This document shows positions 1-7,149 of a stretch of DNA of 11,794 nt, in pieces. A program made the translations under genes and the position numbers. The notes under the pieces were generated by a model. The model did no database searches. It worked only from the letters and a program-made list of their open reading frames with translations, and was not told the DNA's origin. This DNA comes from Prevotella sp. (lineage in GTDB: Bacteria; Bacteroidota; Bacteroidia; Bacteroidales; Dysgonomonadaceae). The DNA lies in assembly GCA_031260865.1 (NCBI GenBank), contig JAISKQ010000223.1, positions 1 to 11,794 of the forward strand, read 5' to 3'. Each line of letters starts with the position of its first letter. Positions within the stretch are counted from its first letter, which is position 1.

Positions 1-133
1 AAGCATGCCGCGTCTCTATGGTCATTACCTTTACCGGTATCACTTTTTCCTGATTTTTCACTTCTGTTTTGCTCGTGCAGGCGGTCATGAAAAGAAGCGT
101 TATCGCCGAATAGAAGAAGAATTTGTTTATCAT
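1..133 (-). CDS. RND-efflux periplasmic adaptor-like lipoprotein, N-terminal part
   Basis: The first 44 codons of a minus-strand gene that continues past the left edge. The protein begins MINKFFFYSAITLLFMTAC, a short signal peptide ending in a lipobox-like FMTAC, so Cys19 would be lipidated and the mature protein anchored in a membrane facing the periplasm. The next residues (TSKTEVKNQEK, then VIPVKVMTIE) match the usual opening of HlyD/AcrA-type membrane fusion proteins, where the first beta strand carries a 'PVxV' pattern. Such adaptors link an inner-membrane RND pump to an outer-membrane TolC-like channel. The family call rests on only about 25 mature residues, so the lipoprotein call is firmer than the adaptor call. 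The pump and channel genes would be expected further left. The gene lies downstream of the first copy of a 94-bp regulatory block and has a plausible promoter between that block and its ATG. Confidence 0.65.
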   Translation of the reverse strand, partial: MINKFFFYSAITLLFMTACTSKTEVKNQEKVIPVKVMTIETRHA

Positions 134-172
134 AGTTTTATGTTAAATTAAATCGCCTATTAATTTAAAATA

Positions 173-203
173 TAAAAGTATGGTTGGAATTTTAACACGG
201 CAA
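173..203 (-). promoter_or_regulatory. Candidate Bacteroidetes-type promoter of the adaptor gene
   Basis: On the minus strand a TTG (203-201) is followed after 20 bases by TACTTTTA (180-173), one mismatch from the Bacteroidetes -7 consensus TAnnTTTG; the -33/-7 spacing is as expected. Transcription would start near 166, leaving a leader of about 33 nt. The TTG is the exact left end of the 94-bp repeated block, and the same arrangement recurs at the second copy, which supports the call. Confidence 0.5.
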
Positions 204-294
204 GGTCAATAGTGCTGAATAGTTGGACGAAAAGACGGATAAATAATTTTAGTATGTATAAAAATGATTTTTGACTTGACTAAAGTGCTGATTT
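201..294. repeat. 94-bp duplicated regulatory block, copy A
   Basis: Aligned without gaps to 4316-4409 with 84 of 94 positions identical. Positions 201-234 (34 nt) and 277-294 (18 nt) are perfectly conserved; all ten substitutions (235, 236, 240, 252, 258, 265, 266, 270, 275, 276) fall in the AT-rich middle. Each copy carries AGTGCTGA twice in the same orientation, here at 211-218 and 284-291, 73 bp apart. Similarity stops at the candidate -33 TTG on the left. The pattern fits an operator or activator region with two protein-binding sites rather than a transposon end. The likely binder is the AraC-family protein encoded next to copy B; that link is inference. Confidence 0.85.
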
Positions 295-410
295 CAGCAA
301 AATTCGCGCCTTTTATTTTCGGACAAAGAACAGAAACAACCCATTATTATAAAAATGCTAAATTCCTCAACTTTTACCCTTGCCCCCGGAAATAAACAGT
401 TTCTTATTAA

Positions 411-1376
411 TTATCTATTATATACCAGTTTTACGTTATCTATCCAAAGGCGGCTATCCGTATTTCCTATATAAGCGCCTCCATTGCTGGATGCGAATTG
501 TAGAACAATGTGCGTGACCTCTTCGTTTTCATTAGCCCAGCCTATTTCCTGTATAGGCACCATTTTCCCTTTGCTATTTCGGGTATAGTAGGCATTGTCT
601 CCATTTTTAAGTTCCATATAGGAACGATAATAGTTTTGTTTGGATATATCACCGTAATGTATAGGTAAACGGTGTCCGTTCTGCCAGCTTTCGACTGTTT
701 TTTCAAATAGTTCATAAGCGGTGGCAACACGAGTAGCGAATACATTTCCATTCGTATCTTCCCATCTATGTTGCAATAATAACTGAGTTTCCGCCCTGTC
801 TTTCTCTTGTAGTAGCGATTGTCGGCTAAATCCGGTAGCTTTTATCTTTAAACCTCCGGTTACGACCTTATAGTCATATTCTAAAGCATTGGGACGTTGT
901 GTAAATGGAACGCCTGTAACTAATTTGCTCTGAGGATCGCTTGTCCCGGTAACAGGCTCAATCATTTCACCAAGAAAGATCGCGCCACTTGCCAATACTT
1001 TAATGCTAAAAAGACCTAACACTTTACATTCTTCTATACGTGTTTCTAAACGCGCGCAATAGCCGTTATCTCTTTTTTCAGGAAAAACGGTGACACTGGT
1101 TTTTGTTATACCTTTCACTTTTGCCAATACCGAAGATACCGCCCATGGCGATTTTGTGTTTTTGTAGGGTTTATCTATCAGCGTATCTCCGGATGCTATC
1201 GCATATAGATATTTTGTGTTGCCTCCAATTATTGCCGATTCTGTTATTTTGCGAACCATCCATTGATTCATATCTCCGAACTGAATAGGTGTCACGGTTT
1301 CTTTTTGCGAATACACGTATAATGATGATAGAAACATCAACATCAATAATAATTGTTTCTTTTCAAACTTTATCAT
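411..1376 (-). CDS. Secreted PCMD (putative carbohydrate metabolism) domain protein
   Basis: A 321-residue protein with an N-terminal signal peptide (about residues 1-23, ending near YVYSQ), so it is exported. The mature part resembles the PCMD family of Bacteroidetes: a start of the type IQFGDMNQWMVRKITES, a central PFTQRPNALEYDYKV segment, and the closing SRLWIDNVKLVYNR beta-strand motif that usually ends this lectin-like jelly-roll domain. The family is named 'putative carbohydrate metabolism' but no biochemical function is established to my knowledge. No lipobox is present, so it is probably periplasmic or surface-exposed rather than lipidated. It is the last gene of a three-gene minus-strand operon, starting 19 bases after the phosphoethanolamine transferase stop. 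No clear intrinsic terminator is visible in the 116 bp (295-410) between its stop and repeat copy A. Confidence 0.8.
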   Translation of the reverse strand: MIKFEKKQLLLMLMFLSSLYVYSQKETVTPIQFGDMNQWMVRKITESAIIGGNTKYLYAIASGDTLIDKPYKNTKSPWAVSSVLAKVKGITKTSVTVFPEKRDNGYCARLETRIEECKVLGLFSIKVLASGAIFLGEMIEPVTGTSDPQSKLVTGVPFTQRPNALEYDYKVVTGGLKIKATGFSRQSLLQEKDRAETQLLLQHRWEDTNGNVFATRVATAYELFEKTVESWQNGHRLPIHYGDISKQNYYRSYMELKNGDNAYYTRNSKGKMVPIQEIGWANENEEVTHIVLQFASSNGGAYIGNTDSRLWIDNVKLVYNR

Positions 1377-1395
1377 AACAAACTATCTATATTAA

Positions 1396-3111
1396 TTAGT
1401 GGTATATTTTTCGTTTTTCGATCATCAATTTGTCTTCCTTCTTCAAATTGGTATCATAAAAGAACACAGGGTCATCATGATCGCCCAAATACATCCTTTT
1501 TTCTATTTTAAACGCAGGGTTTACTAAAGATAATCCTGATTCTAAATAATTAGTTTTAATGGAAGCAATATCCAACAATGTATGAAATATAGCATTTGTG
1601 GATACCGGTTTCAATTGATTGGATTTCGCGGCTTCATATTTCTGTTGAAAATTCATTTGATAGTTTGACGAGAACCAAATTAGCATGGGGATTCTTAACT
1701 GATAGAAAGTAGGATTTGGCGACGCGTGCAAAAATTTCATCCTGCCATCATCCAATATATCTTCTCCGTGATCTGACGCAAAAAGCAAGGAAGAACATGA
1801 ACCAGAATTTTCTAAGATATCTGTAATGCGGGAAAGAAAATCATCAGTGTATAAGATGCTATTGTCATAAGCATTGACTAACTTCTCTTTCATCTTTCTG
1901 GTAATTTCCGTTACATTATCAGGCTTAAATTTCGAAAACTCTTTCGGATAACGATCTTTATAATTGAAATGAGAACCATACGTATGTAATATAATAAATA
2001 AATTTCCGGGAATAGAATCTATGCAGTGTTTAAAAATCGGAAGCAGGACATCATCATAATTATCTATAATCTTTCCGTCATTTCGTCGTGATCGTATATT
2101 TCGATAATAATGAGCATCTTCCGCGAAATATTGAGTAAATGTCTTATTCGCTCCCTGATTTGATAAAAACACAGTGGTGAAACCGATTTCTTTAAATGCC
2201 TCAATAACACTTTTTTGCCCATATATTATGTTATAATTCTCAGCCGAAGCCGCCGACATCATTATAGATACACTTTTGTGTGTAGTATTCGATTGCGTGA
2301 TGGCGTCATTAAAGAATACCAATCCTTTTTTTTGTTCAAGCAAGGGAGTTGTTTTACGTTCATAACCATACAGACTCCAGTTTTCGGCCCGACTCGATTC
2401 CCCAATAACCAATGTGTATATCTCTCTCTGTTTAGCGATAGTGTCTTTTTTCGCCTCAAATGTAAAGTCTTTTGATGTTGCCGGATAAATCCTGCTTTTT
2501 TGCCATTTATCAATTGCAAAATTCAGATTATAAAAAACATTCACGGGATATACATTTTCATGGAAAGTATATCTGCCTGTGTTATTATCTTTGGATAAAA
2601 ACGATAATATATAAGAGGTAATTATTAATATTCCTCCCATTATAACAAGCTTTTCCCTTAAAGCATTTTCAAGGTATATTTTGCGCTTCATCTGATAAAT
2701 AGCAATAACCATTGTCGGTATATATAATATACAAACTAACACGATGGATGACCACAGGCTATTGAGCAGCTCACTAACTTCGGAAGTATTGGTTGTCACC
2801 ACATTCAGAAACATATCCACCGCGATAACATCTTCACCAAAGAGATAGAATACTACCAACTGGAAAGCATGTATGATAAGAAGAGGAAATAATATAAGTT
2901 GTATAAGTCCCGTATTTTTCGCTAAAGAGAAAAGCAGGGTATATAATCCCAACGGAAAAAATATGAGAACGATTTTTCCATATATATTGAGTGGTTCCGT
3001 AAATATTAAAAAAATACCGGGTATCATATTTAATAAGATATAAAACCAAATAAACTTCGAGGAGGAAGCCGAAAAGGACTTTATCTGTTTTTTCAATATA
3101 TCTATAATCAT
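1396..3111 (-). CDS. Phosphoethanolamine transferase, EptA/MCR-like (sulfatase fold)
   Basis: A 571-residue inner-membrane enzyme expected to move phosphoethanolamine from phosphatidylethanolamine onto lipid A or another envelope glycan. About five membrane helices occupy residues 20-172, followed by a periplasmic sulfatase-type domain. Visible metal and catalytic residues: Glu238 in VIGESSRAENWSLYGY; Thr277 in SNTTHKSVS, aligning with the nucleophile of MCR-1/EptA; His376 and His381 in LHTYGSH; Asp447-His448 in SDHGED; His462 in FLHASP. The two cysteines that bracket the nucleophile in MCR-1 are absent here (Gln273 and Ile283 at those positions by my alignment). Its ATG comes one base after the stop of the upstream outer-membrane protein gene, implying translational coupling. 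In Proteobacteria such enzymes give resistance to cationic peptides; the acceptor in this organism cannot be told from sequence. Confidence 0.9.
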   Translation of the reverse strand: MIIDILKKQIKSFSASSSKFIWFYILLNMIPGIFLIFTEPLNIYGKIVLIFFPLGLYTLLFSLAKNTGLIQLILFPLLIIHAFQLVVFYLFGEDVIAVDMFLNVVTTNTSEVSELLNSLWSSIVLVCILYIPTMVIAIYQMKRKIYLENALREKLVIMGGILIITSYILSFLSKDNNTGRYTFHENVYPVNVFYNLNFAIDKWQKSRIYPATSKDFTFEAKKDTIAKQREIYTLVIGESSRAENWSLYGYERKTTPLLEQKKGLVFFNDAITQSNTTHKSVSIMMSAASAENYNIIYGQKSVIEAFKEIGFTTVFLSNQGANKTFTQYFAEDAHYYRNIRSRRNDGKIIDNYDDVLLPIFKHCIDSIPGNLFIILHTYGSHFNYKDRYPKEFSKFKPDNVTEITRKMKEKLVNAYDNSILYTDDFLSRITDILENSGSCSSLLFASDHGEDILDDGRMKFLHASPNPTFYQLRIPMLIWFSSNYQMNFQQKYEAAKSNQLKPVSTNAIFHTLLDIASIKTNYLESGLSLVNPAFKIEKRMYLGDHDDPVFFYDTNLKKEDKLMIEKRKIYH

Positions 3112-3112
3112 C

Positions 3113-4273
3113 TCAGAATGCTTCGTTTATATTAAAATAGAATGCCGTTTGTCCCTTACCGACTCCATAGTCGAGACGTATATTTACTCTATTCTTAAAT
3201 TCCCATCGATAGCCTGCTCCAAATGTAGGCAGTGTATGTTCCCATTTAAATTCATCAAAATCAGGGAATACATTTCCGGCTCCGATCCATAGGGTGATAC
3301 CACTCCTCCTATATACTTTTTGCCGAAGCTCCACTTGTGTCTGCAGCAACTTCTTATCCCTGTACTGTCCTTTATAATAACCTCTCATCTGGTAGGAGCC
3401 ACCTAATAAGGATACCATACTCCATGGTATATTTCCGTTATTGAAGGTTCCCTGAAAATCAAAGGCTAATATGCCTCCTTTCCATACCGGAGTATAATAT
3501 CTGGCTATAAATTCCGTCCTGTTGAAGTTGCTGGAAGCGCCTAAAAATGTAGGATAAAAGTTTTGTTCTAATTTTAAATAAAGTCCATGATATGGGTTTG
3601 GAATAAAATCCCTTGAATCATAAGAAACAATAATGCCACCACCTATAGCCGTGTTATTTCTATCCGCTCCGGCGAGAAAATCTATATCCCTGAATTTATC
3701 ACCTCGTATATGCTGTCCCATACCTGTGATACCGATATAAGTATAGTTTGCCAGTTTCTTAAGGAAGTCGACTTTTATTTGTATCTCTTTTTTTGTATAT
3801 TTAGAGTAGTTATCTTCATTCTTTCCGTTATCGTATCCGATGCCCCAATATCTGCCGGGCATTGACGAAAAGAACATATTTATATCTAATCTGTACTTAT
3901 CCTTAGGGAATATCGTATTGCCTCCTATACCCAACGAATAAGCCCCTGAAGTGGTAAAGTCTCCGAAAATGGAAACATTTGAAGGCGAAATACTCAGATC
4001 GGTTCTGTCTATTCTGTATAGTCCCGAAGCTACCATACCTAAACCTAATTTAGTATCTTTGGAATAATGCGGTCCTCCGATAAACGAGATATCCAAGCGT
4101 TTGTCGTTATTCACTTCATTTGATTTCTCAAAGTATTCTAATATACTATTTATAAAGTTCTTATGATTAACGGTCTTGGTCGAGTCCGTCTGGCTATAGC
4201 AAGTAATAATATTACTTCCAAGCGTAAAAAATAATAGGATACATGCGACGCGGTTACTCATTTGGTTTTTCAT
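3113..4273 (-). CDS. BamA/TamA-family (Omp85 surface antigen) outer-membrane beta-barrel protein
   Basis: A 386-residue protein with a signal peptide (about residues 1-28, ending ITCYSQ) and then a beta-barrel rich in alternating aromatic/glycine strands. It resembles the C-terminal barrel domain of Omp85 proteins: a first strand ISFIGGPHYSKDTKLGLG, an internal GGIIVSYDSRDFIPNPYHG strand-turn, the MRGYYKGQYRDKK segment corresponding to the family's RGY loop, and a terminal strand ending in Phe (FYFNINEAF), the usual barrel-assembly signal. There are no POTRA repeats, since only about 30 residues separate the signal peptide from the barrel, so it is a barrel-only member and unlikely to be the essential BamA. 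It is first in the operon with the phosphoethanolamine transferase and PCMD genes. The ATG at 4273 was chosen; an in-frame ATG 12 bases downstream (4261) is possible. Its cargo or partner is unknown. Confidence 0.82.
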   Translation of the reverse strand: MKNQMSNRVACILLFFTLGSNIITCYSQTDSTKTVNHKNFINSILEYFEKSNEVNNDKRLDISFIGGPHYSKDTKLGLGMVASGLYRIDRTDLSISPSNVSIFGDFTTSGAYSLGIGGNTIFPKDKYRLDINMFFSSMPGRYWGIGYDNGKNEDNYSKYTKKEIQIKVDFLKKLANYTYIGITGMGQHIRGDKFRDIDFLAGADRNNTAIGGGIIVSYDSRDFIPNPYHGLYLKLEQNFYPTFLGASSNFNRTEFIARYYTPVWKGGILAFDFQGTFNNGNIPWSMVSLLGGSYQMRGYYKGQYRDKKLLQTQVELRQKVYRRSGITLWIGAGNVFPDFDEFKWEHTLPTFGAGYRWEFKNRVNIRLDYGVGKGQTAFYFNINEAF

Positions 4274-4287
4274 TAAAAATATAGATA

Positions 4288-4318
4288 CAAAAAAAGAGGC
4301 GTTTTTTCAATATCACAA
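4288..4318 (-). promoter_or_regulatory. Candidate promoter of the barrel/EptA/PCMD operon
   Basis: On the minus strand TTG (4318-4316) is followed after 20 bases by TTTTTTTG (4295-4288), one mismatch from TAnnTTTG. The -7 box lies in an A-rich run, so it could be fortuitous, but the position relative to the 94-bp block is the same as at copy A. Transcription would begin near 4281, leaving about 8 nt before the ATG. Confidence 0.42.
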
Positions 4319-4409
4319 GGTCAATAGTGCTGAATAGTTGGACGAAAAGGAGGAAAAATAATTTTAATATGTGTAAAAAGAATTATTGATATGACTAAAG
4401 TGCTGATTT
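4316..4409. repeat. 94-bp duplicated regulatory block, copy B
   Basis: The partner of 201-294 in direct orientation, 4115 bp away. AGTGCTGA boxes are at 4326-4333 and 4399-4406. This copy fills most of the divergent gap between the minus-strand three-gene operon and the plus-strand araC gene: its left box lies just upstream of the minus promoter's -33 and its right box lies where the -33 of the araC promoter would be. That makes it a plausible shared operator for activation of the operon and for araC autoregulation (inference). Confidence 0.85.
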
Positions 4410-4418
4410 TGTTTTTTG

Positions 4419-4426
4419 TATCTTTA
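4419..4426 (+). promoter_or_regulatory. Candidate -7 element of the araC promoter
   Basis: TATCTTTA, one mismatch from TAnnTTTG, 19 bases before the chosen ATG at 4446. No TTG occurs at the expected -33 distance; an AGTGCTGA box of copy B (4399-4406) occupies that place instead, which fits a promoter governed by the regulator. Confidence 0.45.
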
Positions 4427-4445
4427 TACTTCAAAAAGAAACTTT

Positions 4446-5318
4446 ATGGAAAGGATAGTAACGCCGCTGACGTGGCAAAAAGACTTAAAAAACAAGGCGG
4501 GAGGCGAAAGCATTGGTAATGACTTTATCCTGCTCGACAATTTTTCAATGTTGCCGTTATTCAACTATCCATTCAAACTGGATATGCTGGTGGTTATGTT
4601 TTGCACAAAAGGAACAGTTTGCGGCACAATAGATATGCAGCCTTGCAATTTGTTCGCCCCTTCCATAATCATTGCTCAACCAAACCAAATCCTGAGTTAT
4701 GAACATGTCAGTGAGGATTTCGCAGGGTGTTGCCTTATTTTTTCCAATGACTTTTCCATCGAAATTCAACCTCACCTTGACGAGCGATTGCCTATCGCCG
4801 CCGCCATTCGAGAAAAACCTTACGTTCAACTCGACAATAAGGGTATGATATTTATCCGCAAATTTCTTTTTACCCTCAAAAAGGTCATGGCGATGACCGA
4901 AAATCCTTATCGTTTGGAAATGATAAAACATTTGACGATGCTGTCTTATTATATGACTCACCCCAGTTTTGAAAACATTATTGAATCGGCAAAACCAAGC
5001 CGTCGGGTGTTGCTGGTGGAAAAATTCACAACTCTTATAAGAGAAAATTATCGAACGCAACGCAAAACGTCATTTTATGCCGGCAAACTTTGCCTTACGC
5101 CGAAGTACTTGTCGGAGACAGTCAAGGCAACCACCGGTAAATCCGTGTCCGATTGGATTGACGACTATGTGATATTAGAAACCAAAGCCCTTCTCAAATC
5201 CACAAACATGACGATTCAGCAAATCAGTGACGCGTTGAATTTTCCATCACAATCATTTTTCGGGAAATATTTTAAGCGAAACACGGGCATATCGCCTAAA
5301 GAGTATAGAGGAAAATAA
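4446..5318 (+). CDS. AraC/XylS-family transcriptional regulator
   Basis: A 290-residue regulator. The N-terminal part (to about residue 190) looks like the cupin-type sensing domain of AraC proteins, with short strands such as LDMLVVMFCTKGTVCGTID and SIIIAQPNQILSYEH. The C-terminal 95 or so residues form the double helix-turn-helix domain: SFYAGKLCLTPKYLSETVK (first HTH), then ALLKSTNMTIQQISDALNF and the family signature FFGKYFKRNTGISPKEYR. The ATG at 4446 (MERIVTPL) is preferred over an upstream TTG at 4416 because the TTG extension would run through the promoter-like TATCTTTA. The gene is divergent from the envelope operon and shares repeat copy B with it. A second copy of that block stands before the efflux adaptor at the left edge, so both operons are candidate targets. 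Its ligand is unknown. Confidence 0.88.
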   Translation: MERIVTPLTWQKDLKNKAGGESIGNDFILLDNFSMLPLFNYPFKLDMLVVMFCTKGTVCGTIDMQPCNLFAPSIIIAQPNQILSYEHVSEDFAGCCLIFSNDFSIEIQPHLDERLPIAAAIREKPYVQLDNKGMIFIRKFLFTLKKVMAMTENPYRLEMIKHLTMLSYYMTHPSFENIIESAKPSRRVLLVEKFTTLIRENYRTQRKTSFYAGKLCLTPKYLSETVKATTGKSVSDWIDDYVILETKALLKSTNMTIQQISDALNFPSQSFFGKYFKRNTGISPKEYRGK

Positions 5319-5325
5319 TAATTTC

Positions 5326-5333
5326 TATCTTTG
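5326..5333 (+). promoter_or_regulatory. -7 element of yigZ, TATCTTTG
   Basis: A perfect match to the Bacteroidetes TAnnTTTG -7 box, only four bases before the yigZ ATG at 5338 and eight bases after the araC stop. No TTG is visible at -33. The spacing implies transcription starting at or next to the start codon. Confidence 0.6.
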
Positions 5334-5337
5334 CACG

Positions 5338-5937
5338 ATGGAAGATACGTTTAAAACAATTACATCTGTCTCCAAAATTATTTATACTGAAAAACGGAGT
5401 AAGTTTATCGCTTATGCTATACCCGTGCAATCGGTGGAAGAAGCGAAAACGGAAATAGAAAAACTCCGTAAAGAGTATTATGACGCGCGCCATGTCTGCT
5501 GGACGTATATGCTGGGAGCCGAACGTAAAGAATTTAGGACGAATGATGACGGCGAACCATCCGGCACAGCAGGTAAACCCATCTTAGGACAGATAAACTC
5601 CAATGACCTTACAAATATACTGATTGTCGTGGTCCGTTACTTTGGCGGCATTAAATTGGGAACAAGCGGACTTATTGCCGCCTATCGCGAAGCGGCCGCG
5701 GAAGCTATATCGGAAAATGAAATCATTGAAAAAACAGTGGATTGCCAGGTATCCTTCAGTTTTGAATATCCTTTTATGAATGATGTTATGAAAATAGTAA
5801 AAGATACGGACGCTACTATCCTGAACCAAAGCTACGATATGGATTGCGTCATGGCGTTGGAAATAAGAAAATCGCTGTTCGATAAACTAAAAAGCAGGCT
5901 TCTAAAAGTGGAAAGCCTGCGATTTATAGAAAAATAA
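5338..5937 (+). CDS. yigZ: YigZ/IMPACT-family protein (UPF0029)
   Basis: A 199-residue cytoplasmic protein, normal length for bacterial YigZ. The N-terminal IMPACT domain is clear: KRSKFIAYAIPV (about 19-30), ARHVCWTYMLG (50-60), DDGEPSGTAGKPIL (71-84) and RYFGGIKLGTSGLIAAYR (100-117). The C-terminal 70 or so residues correspond to the ferredoxin-like DUF1949 domain. The eukaryotic homologue IMPACT/Yih1 binds Gcn1 and dampens Gcn2 signalling; the bacterial role is poorly defined, with nucleic-acid binding proposed. Transcription is probably its own, from the TATCTTTG at 5326. The 3' end converges on the fprA gene with only nine bases between stop codons, and an inverted repeat in its last codons serves as the terminator of the opposite strand. 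Confidence 0.93.
   Translation: MEDTFKTITSVSKIIYTEKRSKFIAYAIPVQSVEEAKTEIEKLRKEYYDARHVCWTYMLGAERKEFRTNDDGEPSGTAGKPILGQINSNDLTNILIVVVRYFGGIKLGTSGLIAAYREAAAEAISENEIIEKTVDCQVSFSFEYPFMNDVMKIVKDTDATILNQSYDMDCVMALEIRKSLFDKLKSRLLKVESLRFIEK
5884..5920 (-). terminator. Intrinsic terminator of the lgt-fprA unit, inside yigZ
   Basis: Read on the minus strand, GCAGGCTT (5920-5913), an 11-nt loop and AAGCCTGC (5901-5894) are followed directly by TTTTT (5893-5889), then AG and TTT. The 8-bp GC-rich stem and T-tract begin 27 bases after the fprA stop. On the plus strand the hairpin is followed by GATTTATAG with no T-tract, so it should act on minus-strand transcription only. Confidence 0.75.
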
Positions 5938-5946
5938 CGGTTTGTC

Positions 5947-7149
5947 TTATCTATCTTGTTTTAGCTTGTCTGCCATCGATTTACCTAATGATATACATGC
6001 CTCGTAAGTCTCATTTCGCATAGCTTGTTTCATTTCCACCGGAGAACCTACTACCTCGAATTTTGTGTCTTGAGCAAACTGAGCCAGTCGTTTTACTGCC
6101 GCGCCCGCCCACGTGAATGAACCAAAATATCCGAAATAACGGTATTTCATATCACGCCCTTCGATTTTCGATAACAGATATTCTACTTCAGGAAATAATT
6201 TATTGTTATAAGTCGGTGAGCCGACTATCAACCCTTTATATTTGAATATATCGCGTATAATGTAGGAATGCGAACGTTTGGACACATTGTGCAGGATTAC
6301 TTCTTTTATACCCTGTCGCGCCAATTCGTAAGCGATGGTTTCAGCCATTTGTTCGGTATTGCCATACATACTGCCATACGCTATCACAACCCCTTCGTCG
6401 CCTTCGTAACGGCTGAGCTTGTCATATATTCCTGTTACGTTCTTTATCTGTTCATCCAAAGTCCATACAGGACCATGTGTAGAGCAAATGTATTTTATCT
6501 CAAGGGCTTTCAGTTTTTCAAGAGCCTTTTGCACAGGTGAACCGAATTTACCTACTACATTCGAATAATAACGAATCATTTCATCATAATAGCGCTCCGG
6601 ATGTAATTGCGTGTCTGTTATTCCGCCGTCAAGTGTACCGAATGTGCCAAAAGCATCGCCGGAAAAAATGATTTTATAATATGAGTCGTATGTCATCATT
6701 GTTTCAGGCCAGTGAACCATCGGCGTCAGATAGAATGTCAGGTTATGCTTTCCTAACGACAGGGTATCATTATCTCCTATTATTTTCACACCTTCGGTAA
6801 TACCAAAGAACCCTTGTATCATATCAGCCGTACGTTTGTTACCCACAATCTGCACGTTCGGATACCTGTTTCTTAATAGTCCCAATGAGCCGGAATGATC
6901 CGGTTCCATGTGGTTGATGACAACATAGTCTAAAGGTTTTCCGTTCAGAGCCAACTCTAATTTATGAAAGAATATATCCGAATAGCACACATCCACGGTA
7001 TCGAATAGCGCTGTTTTCTCATCAACAATTATATATGAATTGTATGACACGCCTTTAGGCAAAGGCCATAAGTTTTCGAAGAGATGTTTGGTGCGGTCAT
7101 TCACGCCAATATAATAGAGATCTCCTTTTATCGCAATTGGTTTTAACAT
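5947..7149 (-). CDS. fprA: Flavodiiron protein (A-type flavoprotein), O2/NO reductase
   Basis: A 400-residue soluble enzyme of the two-domain flavodiiron class. The N-terminal metallo-beta-lactamase-like domain holds every expected di-iron ligand: His80, Glu82, Asp84 and His85 in NHMEPDHSGSL, His146 in MVHWPET, Asp165 in SGDAFGTFG and His225 in STHGPVW. The C-terminal flavodoxin domain begins near residue 254 with the FMN phosphate loop YGSMYGNTEQMAE and continues with VGSPTYNNKLFPEV and GYFGSFTWAGAAVK. It ends without a rubredoxin module, so electrons should come from a separate rubredoxin or similar donor. Such proteins reduce oxygen to water or nitric oxide to nitrous oxide and protect anaerobes. 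It lies 36 bases after lgt on the same strand and has no recognisable promoter in that gap, so the two are probably cotranscribed. Confidence 0.94.
   Translation of the reverse strand: MLKPIAIKGDLYYIGVNDRTKHLFENLWPLPKGVSYNSYIIVDEKTALFDTVDVCYSDIFFHKLELALNGKPLDYVVINHMEPDHSGSLGLLRNRYPNVQIVGNKRTADMIQGFFGITEGVKIIGDNDTLSLGKHNLTFYLTPMVHWPETMMTYDSYYKIIFSGDAFGTFGTLDGGITDTQLHPERYYDEMIRYYSNVVGKFGSPVQKALEKLKALEIKYICSTHGPVWTLDEQIKNVTGIYDKLSRYEGDEGVVIAYGSMYGNTEQMAETIAYELARQGIKEVILHNVSKRSHSYIIRDIFKYKGLIVGSPTYNNKLFPEVEYLLSKIEGRDMKYRYFGYFGSFTWAGAAVKRLAQFAQDTKFEVVGSPVEMKQAMRNETYEACISLGKSMADKLKQDR

Follow-up and report, generated by a model that had tools for sequence, protein, structure and literature searches.

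How does one and the same 94-nt block come to stand before two different operons of a single bacterial genome, and does it place both of them under the regulator encoded beside it? The question is raised by the window, by which is meant the whole stretch of DNA analysed, 11,794 nucleotides of contig C275 of genome G000 (NCBI GCA_031260865.1, JAISKQ010000223.1), an assembly of 2,536,070 bases in 335 contigs with a completeness of 74% and a contamination of 2.6%. The arrangement is known from this single contig.

The Locus

Read from left to right, the locus consists of the start of an adaptor gene on the minus strand, copy 1 of the block, three minus-strand genes for a PCMD-domain protein, an EptA-like protein and an Omp85-like protein, copy 2 of the block, and araC and yigZ on the plus strand. 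The adaptor gene (2..133, minus strand) is truncated by the contig end and retains 44 codons, with its ATG at 133; its translation, and tblastn matches to adaptor genes near araC in relatives, indicate an RND-efflux periplasmic adaptor lipoprotein. The initial annotation had spoken here of drug efflux, an attribution that draws on these 44 codons and on the RND operons of the relatives described below and reaches as far as they do; elsewhere in the 74% complete genome, a search for the rest of the efflux operon returned only pumps at 21–24% identity.

The envelope operon, transcribed from the minus strand, begins with the Omp85-like outer-membrane barrel (gene 1, 3113..4273; PF01103, with NF047779 below its cut-off), continues with the EptA-like phosphoethanolamine transferase (gene 2, 1396..3111) and ends with the PCMD-domain protein (gene 3, 411..1376; PF13201). 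The EptA-like protein exceeds the cut-offs of PF08019 (52.3 bits) and PF00884 (152.2 bits), while against the NCBIfam family of lipid A phosphoethanolamine transferases, NF028537, it reaches 234.9 bits where the cut-off is 500, and the phosphoethanolamine modification proposed earlier draws on this protein, above the Pfam and below the NCBIfam cut-offs. On the plus strand follow the AraC-family regulator (4446..5318) and a YigZ-family gene (5338..5937), which is above the Pfam and below the NCBIfam cut-off.

The regulator matches PF00165 and, with 68.4 bits against a cut-off of 33.6 (E 6.9e-19), PF12833 (HTH_18), and has the DNA-binding domain with two helix-turn-helix (HTH) motifs that defines AraC/XylS proteins; by sequence as well as by fold, its C-terminal domain corresponds to 2k9s, the DNA-binding domain of AraC. 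It is not the AraC of E. coli, to judge from the equivalog NF007860 (55.4 bits, cut-off 208), and its N-terminal half, where the family would have a cupin-like regulatory domain, has no match to a sensor domain of Pfam. The structural model (43 sequences, pLDDT 78, pTM 0.57) predicts an N-terminal half rich in beta strands and a double HTH; in Foldseek, full-length members of the AraC family from Vibrio cholerae and E. coli match the whole model best, with TM-scores of about 0.3 to 0.4, and its N-terminal half, within a model of pTM 0.57, aligns with the regulatory domain of RhaR (TM 0.71 by target).

The Repeated Block

Two matching blocks had been proposed at 201..294 (copy 1, on the efflux side) and 4316..4409 (copy 2, with the envelope operon on one side and araC on the other), and they are found at exactly these positions, neither with an assigned strand, with 84 identities in 94 gap-free positions; the wider match found by the repeat search runs from 190 to 294 and from 4305 to 4409 (105 nt at 86%). 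The first 34 and the last 18 nt are identical in the two copies, all 10 mismatches falling inside the central 42 nt, a clustering within 42 consecutive positions that has P = 0.002 in 200,000 random placements. The flanks differ on both sides.

Searches of the 74% complete genome G000 found these two copies and no third. BLAST returned them together with five matches of 15–26 nt (E 0.23 to 0.81), and a covariance model without structure returned the same two (E 1.1e-19 and 2.2e-18), its third-best match, of 18 bits and E 0.0096, lying in the gap between two reading frames whose 3′ ends converge, on a contig in which no AraC relative was found. The core pattern AAGGTYN{11,18}TTGGACNAAA occurs twice, both times within the blocks, and not at all in its reversed control. 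The genome-wide search that the initial annotation had proposed as a check has, then, yielded two copies and no other clear site by BLAST, model or core pattern. With only two sites in a genome of 74% completeness, the finding that was to count against the proposal, namely a dispersed repeat, therefore does not apply; at this completeness the count is a limit and not a proof, and further sites may be missing. In 24 other genomes of the genus, BLAST gave short matches of 21 to 41 nt in three (E 0.0008 to 0.0097) and none in 21.

Several other identities for the block were considered and rejected. The end of a mobile element, or a dispersed repeat of another kind, is ruled out by the presence of only two copies in the 74% complete genome and by the conserved place of the block in relatives; a structured RNA, because window positions 1–6000 contain no Rfam match at the gathering score and the block also lies upstream of −33 boxes; and a conserved small reading frame, because none of the six frames is open throughout all nine block sequences compared below. 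As for an operator made of inverted repeats, it is chiefly in the A/T-rich middle of the block that the best inverted pairs are found.

Internal Anatomy and Promoters

The block is laid out as an AAGG, a TTGGAC 21 bp later and a similar repeat another 52 bp along, and these spacings are close to whole turns of the helix, B-DNA having a helical repeat of 10.5 bp per turn. Three elements on the plus strand were delimited by alignment and offset scan, in copy 1 also by the identity profile: R1 (202..219 in copy 1, AAGGTCAATAGTGCTGAA; 4317..4334 in copy 2), which in copy 1 abuts the −33 element of the operon; R2 (223..240, beginning TTGGACGAAA; 4338..4355), whose first half is the most conserved part; and R3 (275..292; 4390..4407), 52 bp past R2, which in copy 2 is situated at the araC promoter according to promoter inspection. 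Among 1,711 offset pairs of 18-mers, R2/R3 is the best-matching pair, R1/R2 ranking 66 and R1/R3 ranking 76; an AraC-type operator would have direct repeats near its −33/−35 element, but here the element that stands at −33 is R1, a weak repeat of R2. R1 and the first half of R2 are the same in both window copies, which differ at 3 of 10 positions in the second half of R2 and at 2 of 18 in R3. Over eight sequences (28 pairs, copy 2 excluded) the mean pairwise identity is 78% in R1, 92% in the first and 65% in the second half of R2, 53% in the middle and 73% in R3, as against 31–45% in 30-nt stretches outside the block.

Both blocks had been described as ending on the TTG of a candidate minus-strand promoter with a 20-nt spacer, and this is what is found: from the TTG at 201–203, 20 nt lead to a candidate −7 box TACTTTTA of the efflux promoter (173..180, minus strand), and from the TTG at 4316–4318, 20 nt lead to a candidate −7 box TTTTTTTG of the envelope operon (4288..4295, minus strand), which is weaker than the consensus and does not have the form TAnnTTTG. 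The Bacteroides promoter consensus is given as TTTG near −33 and TAnnTTTG at −7 (PMC7366714). At the operon-side edge of the block, TTG is present in both window copies and in loci L094, L097 and L100 of the relatives and TTT in L095, L096, L098 and L099, and all seven have a TAnnTTTG box 19–20 nt from the edge. On the araC side, a TAnnTTT box lies 21–30 nt past R3 in copy 2 and in six of the seven relatives, including L094, in which araC is no longer adjacent; none was found past R3 in L095 or in copy 1. The candidate −7 box of araC in the window is TATCTTTA (4419..4426, plus strand), and at a similar place L100 has TATCTTTG and L096 has TAATTTTG.

The Block in Relatives

When named genomes were scanned with the AraC protein, 66 loci came up, the seven closest of which were taken into the block alignment; the closer AraC proteins P0002–P0008 (78–84% identity) stand outside this DNA comparison. 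Elsewhere in the analysis, loci L181, L184 and L185 entered only the check for AraC relatives, and L182 is outside all counts. By their record names the seven belong to Candidatus Symbiothrix (L094), Dysgonamonadaceae (L095, L096, L099), Prevotellaceae (L097, L098) and Bacteroidales (L100). Their AraC proteins are 58–78% identical to that of the window, and each locus has one block, beside an RND-efflux adaptor operon. Together with the two window copies, nine blocks align over 94 columns, 26 of them invariant, the sole gap being a 1-nt insertion in L094. In six of the seven (L095–L100) the block lies between the operon and a divergent araC, and in L094 it has stayed with the adaptor, though araC is 2.4 kb away behind other genes.

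Frames for an adaptor and an RND permease were recognized by eye in L095–L100, and a TolC-like frame in L095 and L098, from at most three frames per locus; the record of L094 stops within the adaptor gene. In L095, the one relative compared with NCBIfam, the full-length adaptor passes TIGR01730, and the permease and TolC matches are below their cut-offs. The efflux operon of L097 and L100 opens, to the left of the operator, with a small gene that by eye encodes a secreted protein. One of the genes that fill the roughly 2.4 kb between operator and araC in L094 (456–2832) resembles a Y1-type transposase.

Beyond these seven, 44 of the loci, plus G011, were searched upstream of araC with a profile of the nine blocks, the starts of araC being extrapolated from tblastn; the other 15 were unused, as partial or contig-edge matches, with L116, L121 and L125 among those simply left out. 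Eleven of the 45 upstream regions score at least 8 bits and seven at least 12, the remaining 34 falling below 8; among the controls, none of 900 first-order shuffles reaches 8 bits, and of 1,483 other stretches, taken from the 44 loci without G011, five reach 8 and none 12. The matched core in L105, L106, L119, L138 and G011 is AAGGTC, 14–15 nt and TTGGACKAAA. The genes opposite these distant araC genes vary, by eye and from their first residues, between efflux adaptors, short-chain dehydrogenases and outer-membrane proteins. Since the block is conserved in the relatives and scores before 11 of 45 distant AraC genes as against 5 of 1,483 control stretches, it is very probably the operator of the adjacent AraC-family protein.

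Across the order, the core pattern was matched six times in 5 of 393 genomes, two of these matches being the window's own, and its reversed control 39 times (counted by hand); the matches being fewer than those of the control, the core pattern alone therefore fails to find the regulon elsewhere. The block model has 11 matches in ten other genomes, at 21–24 bits. Reading frames were listed around six of them, no AraC relative was found at E 1e-3 in the 3 kb of any of the 11 loci, and with this absence the matches are taken as chance and not as operator sites.

A Probable Gain on the Envelope Side

The envelope operon occurs with the same gene order (Omp85-like/EptA-like/PCMD), at 55–90% identity, in ten other genomes of the genus. 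The block was found in none of the ten in the 300 nt before Omp85, nor was an AraC relative found in the stretches examined, which reach past Omp85 by about 0.3 kb in most cases and by several kb in G012 and G018. Because these ten genomes carry the operon without the block in those 300 nt, the operon appears to be older than its AraC site. In the relatives of the block alignment, for their part, the putative operator regularly has its place on the efflux side, the site on the EptA side being the apparent gain. In the two closest genomes, G012 and G018 (loci L043/L044), a GAAC/GTTC palindrome, AAATGAACATTCGTTCATTT in L044, precedes the envelope operon; by eye it is of the kind bound by TetR-family proteins, and it suggests that another regulator may act there.

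Discussion

In the relatives, one copy of the probable operator stands beside an RND efflux operon, in most cases with a divergent araC on its other side. The regulator would bind R2 (TTGGACKAAA...), with R1 beside the −33 box of the operon, and drive that operon; at the araC promoter, 52 bp from R2, R3 could serve autoregulation or the formation of a DNA loop. In the window the Omp85-like/EptA-like/PCMD operon lies between araC and the efflux operon with a copy of the block on both sides, so that one regulator probably now controls the pump and the modification of the envelope. We consider it likely that a duplication of the operator brought the resident envelope operon under the efflux-type AraC; the binding of AraC, the direction of control and the route of the duplication we infer from the sequences. 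Of the two-operon AraC regulon that the initial annotation had put forward, two points are supported: that the block is a regulatory site linked to the neighboring AraC, given its conservation beside the adaptor operon of seven relatives, six of which have it before araC, and its weaker forms before 11 of 45 distant araC genes; and that the 74% complete genome has two such sites only. The internal layout of the site, with its spacings of 21 and 52 bp, and the efflux side as its usual position add to that annotation.

It could be argued that one of the copies is a scar, the block having been copied as the operon moved in and one side alone still working, without a two-operon regulon. No araC promoter box accompanies R3 in copy 1, the operon's −7 box at copy 2 is poor, and with L094 as outgroup six of the differing positions are derived in copy 2 and two in copy 1, with two ambiguous. 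However, six against two are too few to weigh, and the two copies agree throughout R1 and the first half of R2 and at 16 of the 18 positions of R3, in contrast to their diverged middle, so we hold this reading to be unlikely. It is very unlikely that the block is the conserved site of another regulator, AraC being a bystander: the site does touch promoter elements, which are conserved in their own right, and before 34 of the 45 distant AraC genes no form of it reaches the threshold, but where it is found it precedes AraC genes of this subfamily despite opposite operons that differ (by eye efflux, outer-membrane proteins, dehydrogenases), and no third clear site was found in genome G000.

The assembly itself has to be considered, since contigs of related strains could have been joined, two alleles of one operator then appearing as two copies. 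Contig C303 (L062) carries at 12478–13257 a second araC tail and a second yigZ, 94% identical to those of the window over 780 nt; the contig end falls within this araC, and the yigZ side runs into what is by eye the end of fprA, with an IS-like transposase gene next. The fragment looks like the allele of another strain, a single yigZ is present in each of the 24 further genomes of the genus that were searched, and the completeness of the bin is 74% and its contamination 2.6%. Against this, the copies differ at 10 positions and have unlike flanks on both sides, and 116 nt separate copy 1 from the PCMD stop, whereas a false join would be expected at a shared stretch, all of which makes an artefact very unlikely. 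The C303 fragment is probably the allele of a related, co-binned strain, or possibly a true second copy; a 2.1-kb stretch of the same contig with suf-like genes is single in genome G000. Quite unlikely, finally, is that the 4.1-kb envelope operon between two direct 94-nt copies of the operator is a removable cassette, recombination deleting the operon and leaving one efflux-operator-araC unit; the C303 fragment could then be the other state, and, if this were true, a population could carry both states and the extent of the regulon would vary between cells.

Under the reading we favor, that of a duplicated operator, the locus can be compared with known systems. Regulator-linked RND efflux operons are a general known kind, which the relatives L095–L100, with adaptor and RND permease genes divergent from araC, resemble; the window differs in the envelope operon that lies in between with an operator copy of its own. 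The araC-araBAD system of E. coli, whose control sites are described as araI1/I2, O1 and O2 (PMC4760080), likewise has an AraC-family protein with proximal sites beside the operon promoter and further sites on the side of the regulator, whereas in the window the sequence is another, the spacings are 21 and 52 bp, there is no sugar operon and the promoters are of the Bacteroidetes type. The concept of regulatory switching, or horizontal regulatory transfer of intergenic regions, appears in PMC5890482, and the same envelope operon is indeed found under differing upstream DNA in different genomes, but here the operator resembles that of the neighboring efflux locus and is kept in two copies.

The growth of a regulon by a new operator is of a kind already known, of which the present case is a new instance, and such a regulon is described in no paper among the matches listed in our literature search. 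It offers a readable example of growth by operator duplication, in that available sequences show the operon in residence, the operator at its usual place and the two combined, and it provides a candidate recognition sequence for a Bacteroidales-type AraC subfamily whose genes face operons for efflux, for outer-membrane proteins and for other functions. Should the two operons respond together, the activity of the pump and the modification of the surface would belong to a single response to a signal.

One further observation concerns the barrel. Members of the AraC subfamily stand opposite genes for outer-membrane and Omp85-like barrel proteins in L063 (9399–12984), L119, L134, L138 and L140. 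The block profile reports nothing upstream of araC in L134 and L140, and scores 12.6 bits in L119, 12.4 in L138 and 9.0 in G011. In G011, L119, L134, L138 and L140 the neighbors of araC include an Omp85-like barrel 34–38% identical to that of the window, and the association between such barrels and this AraC subfamily therefore recurs.
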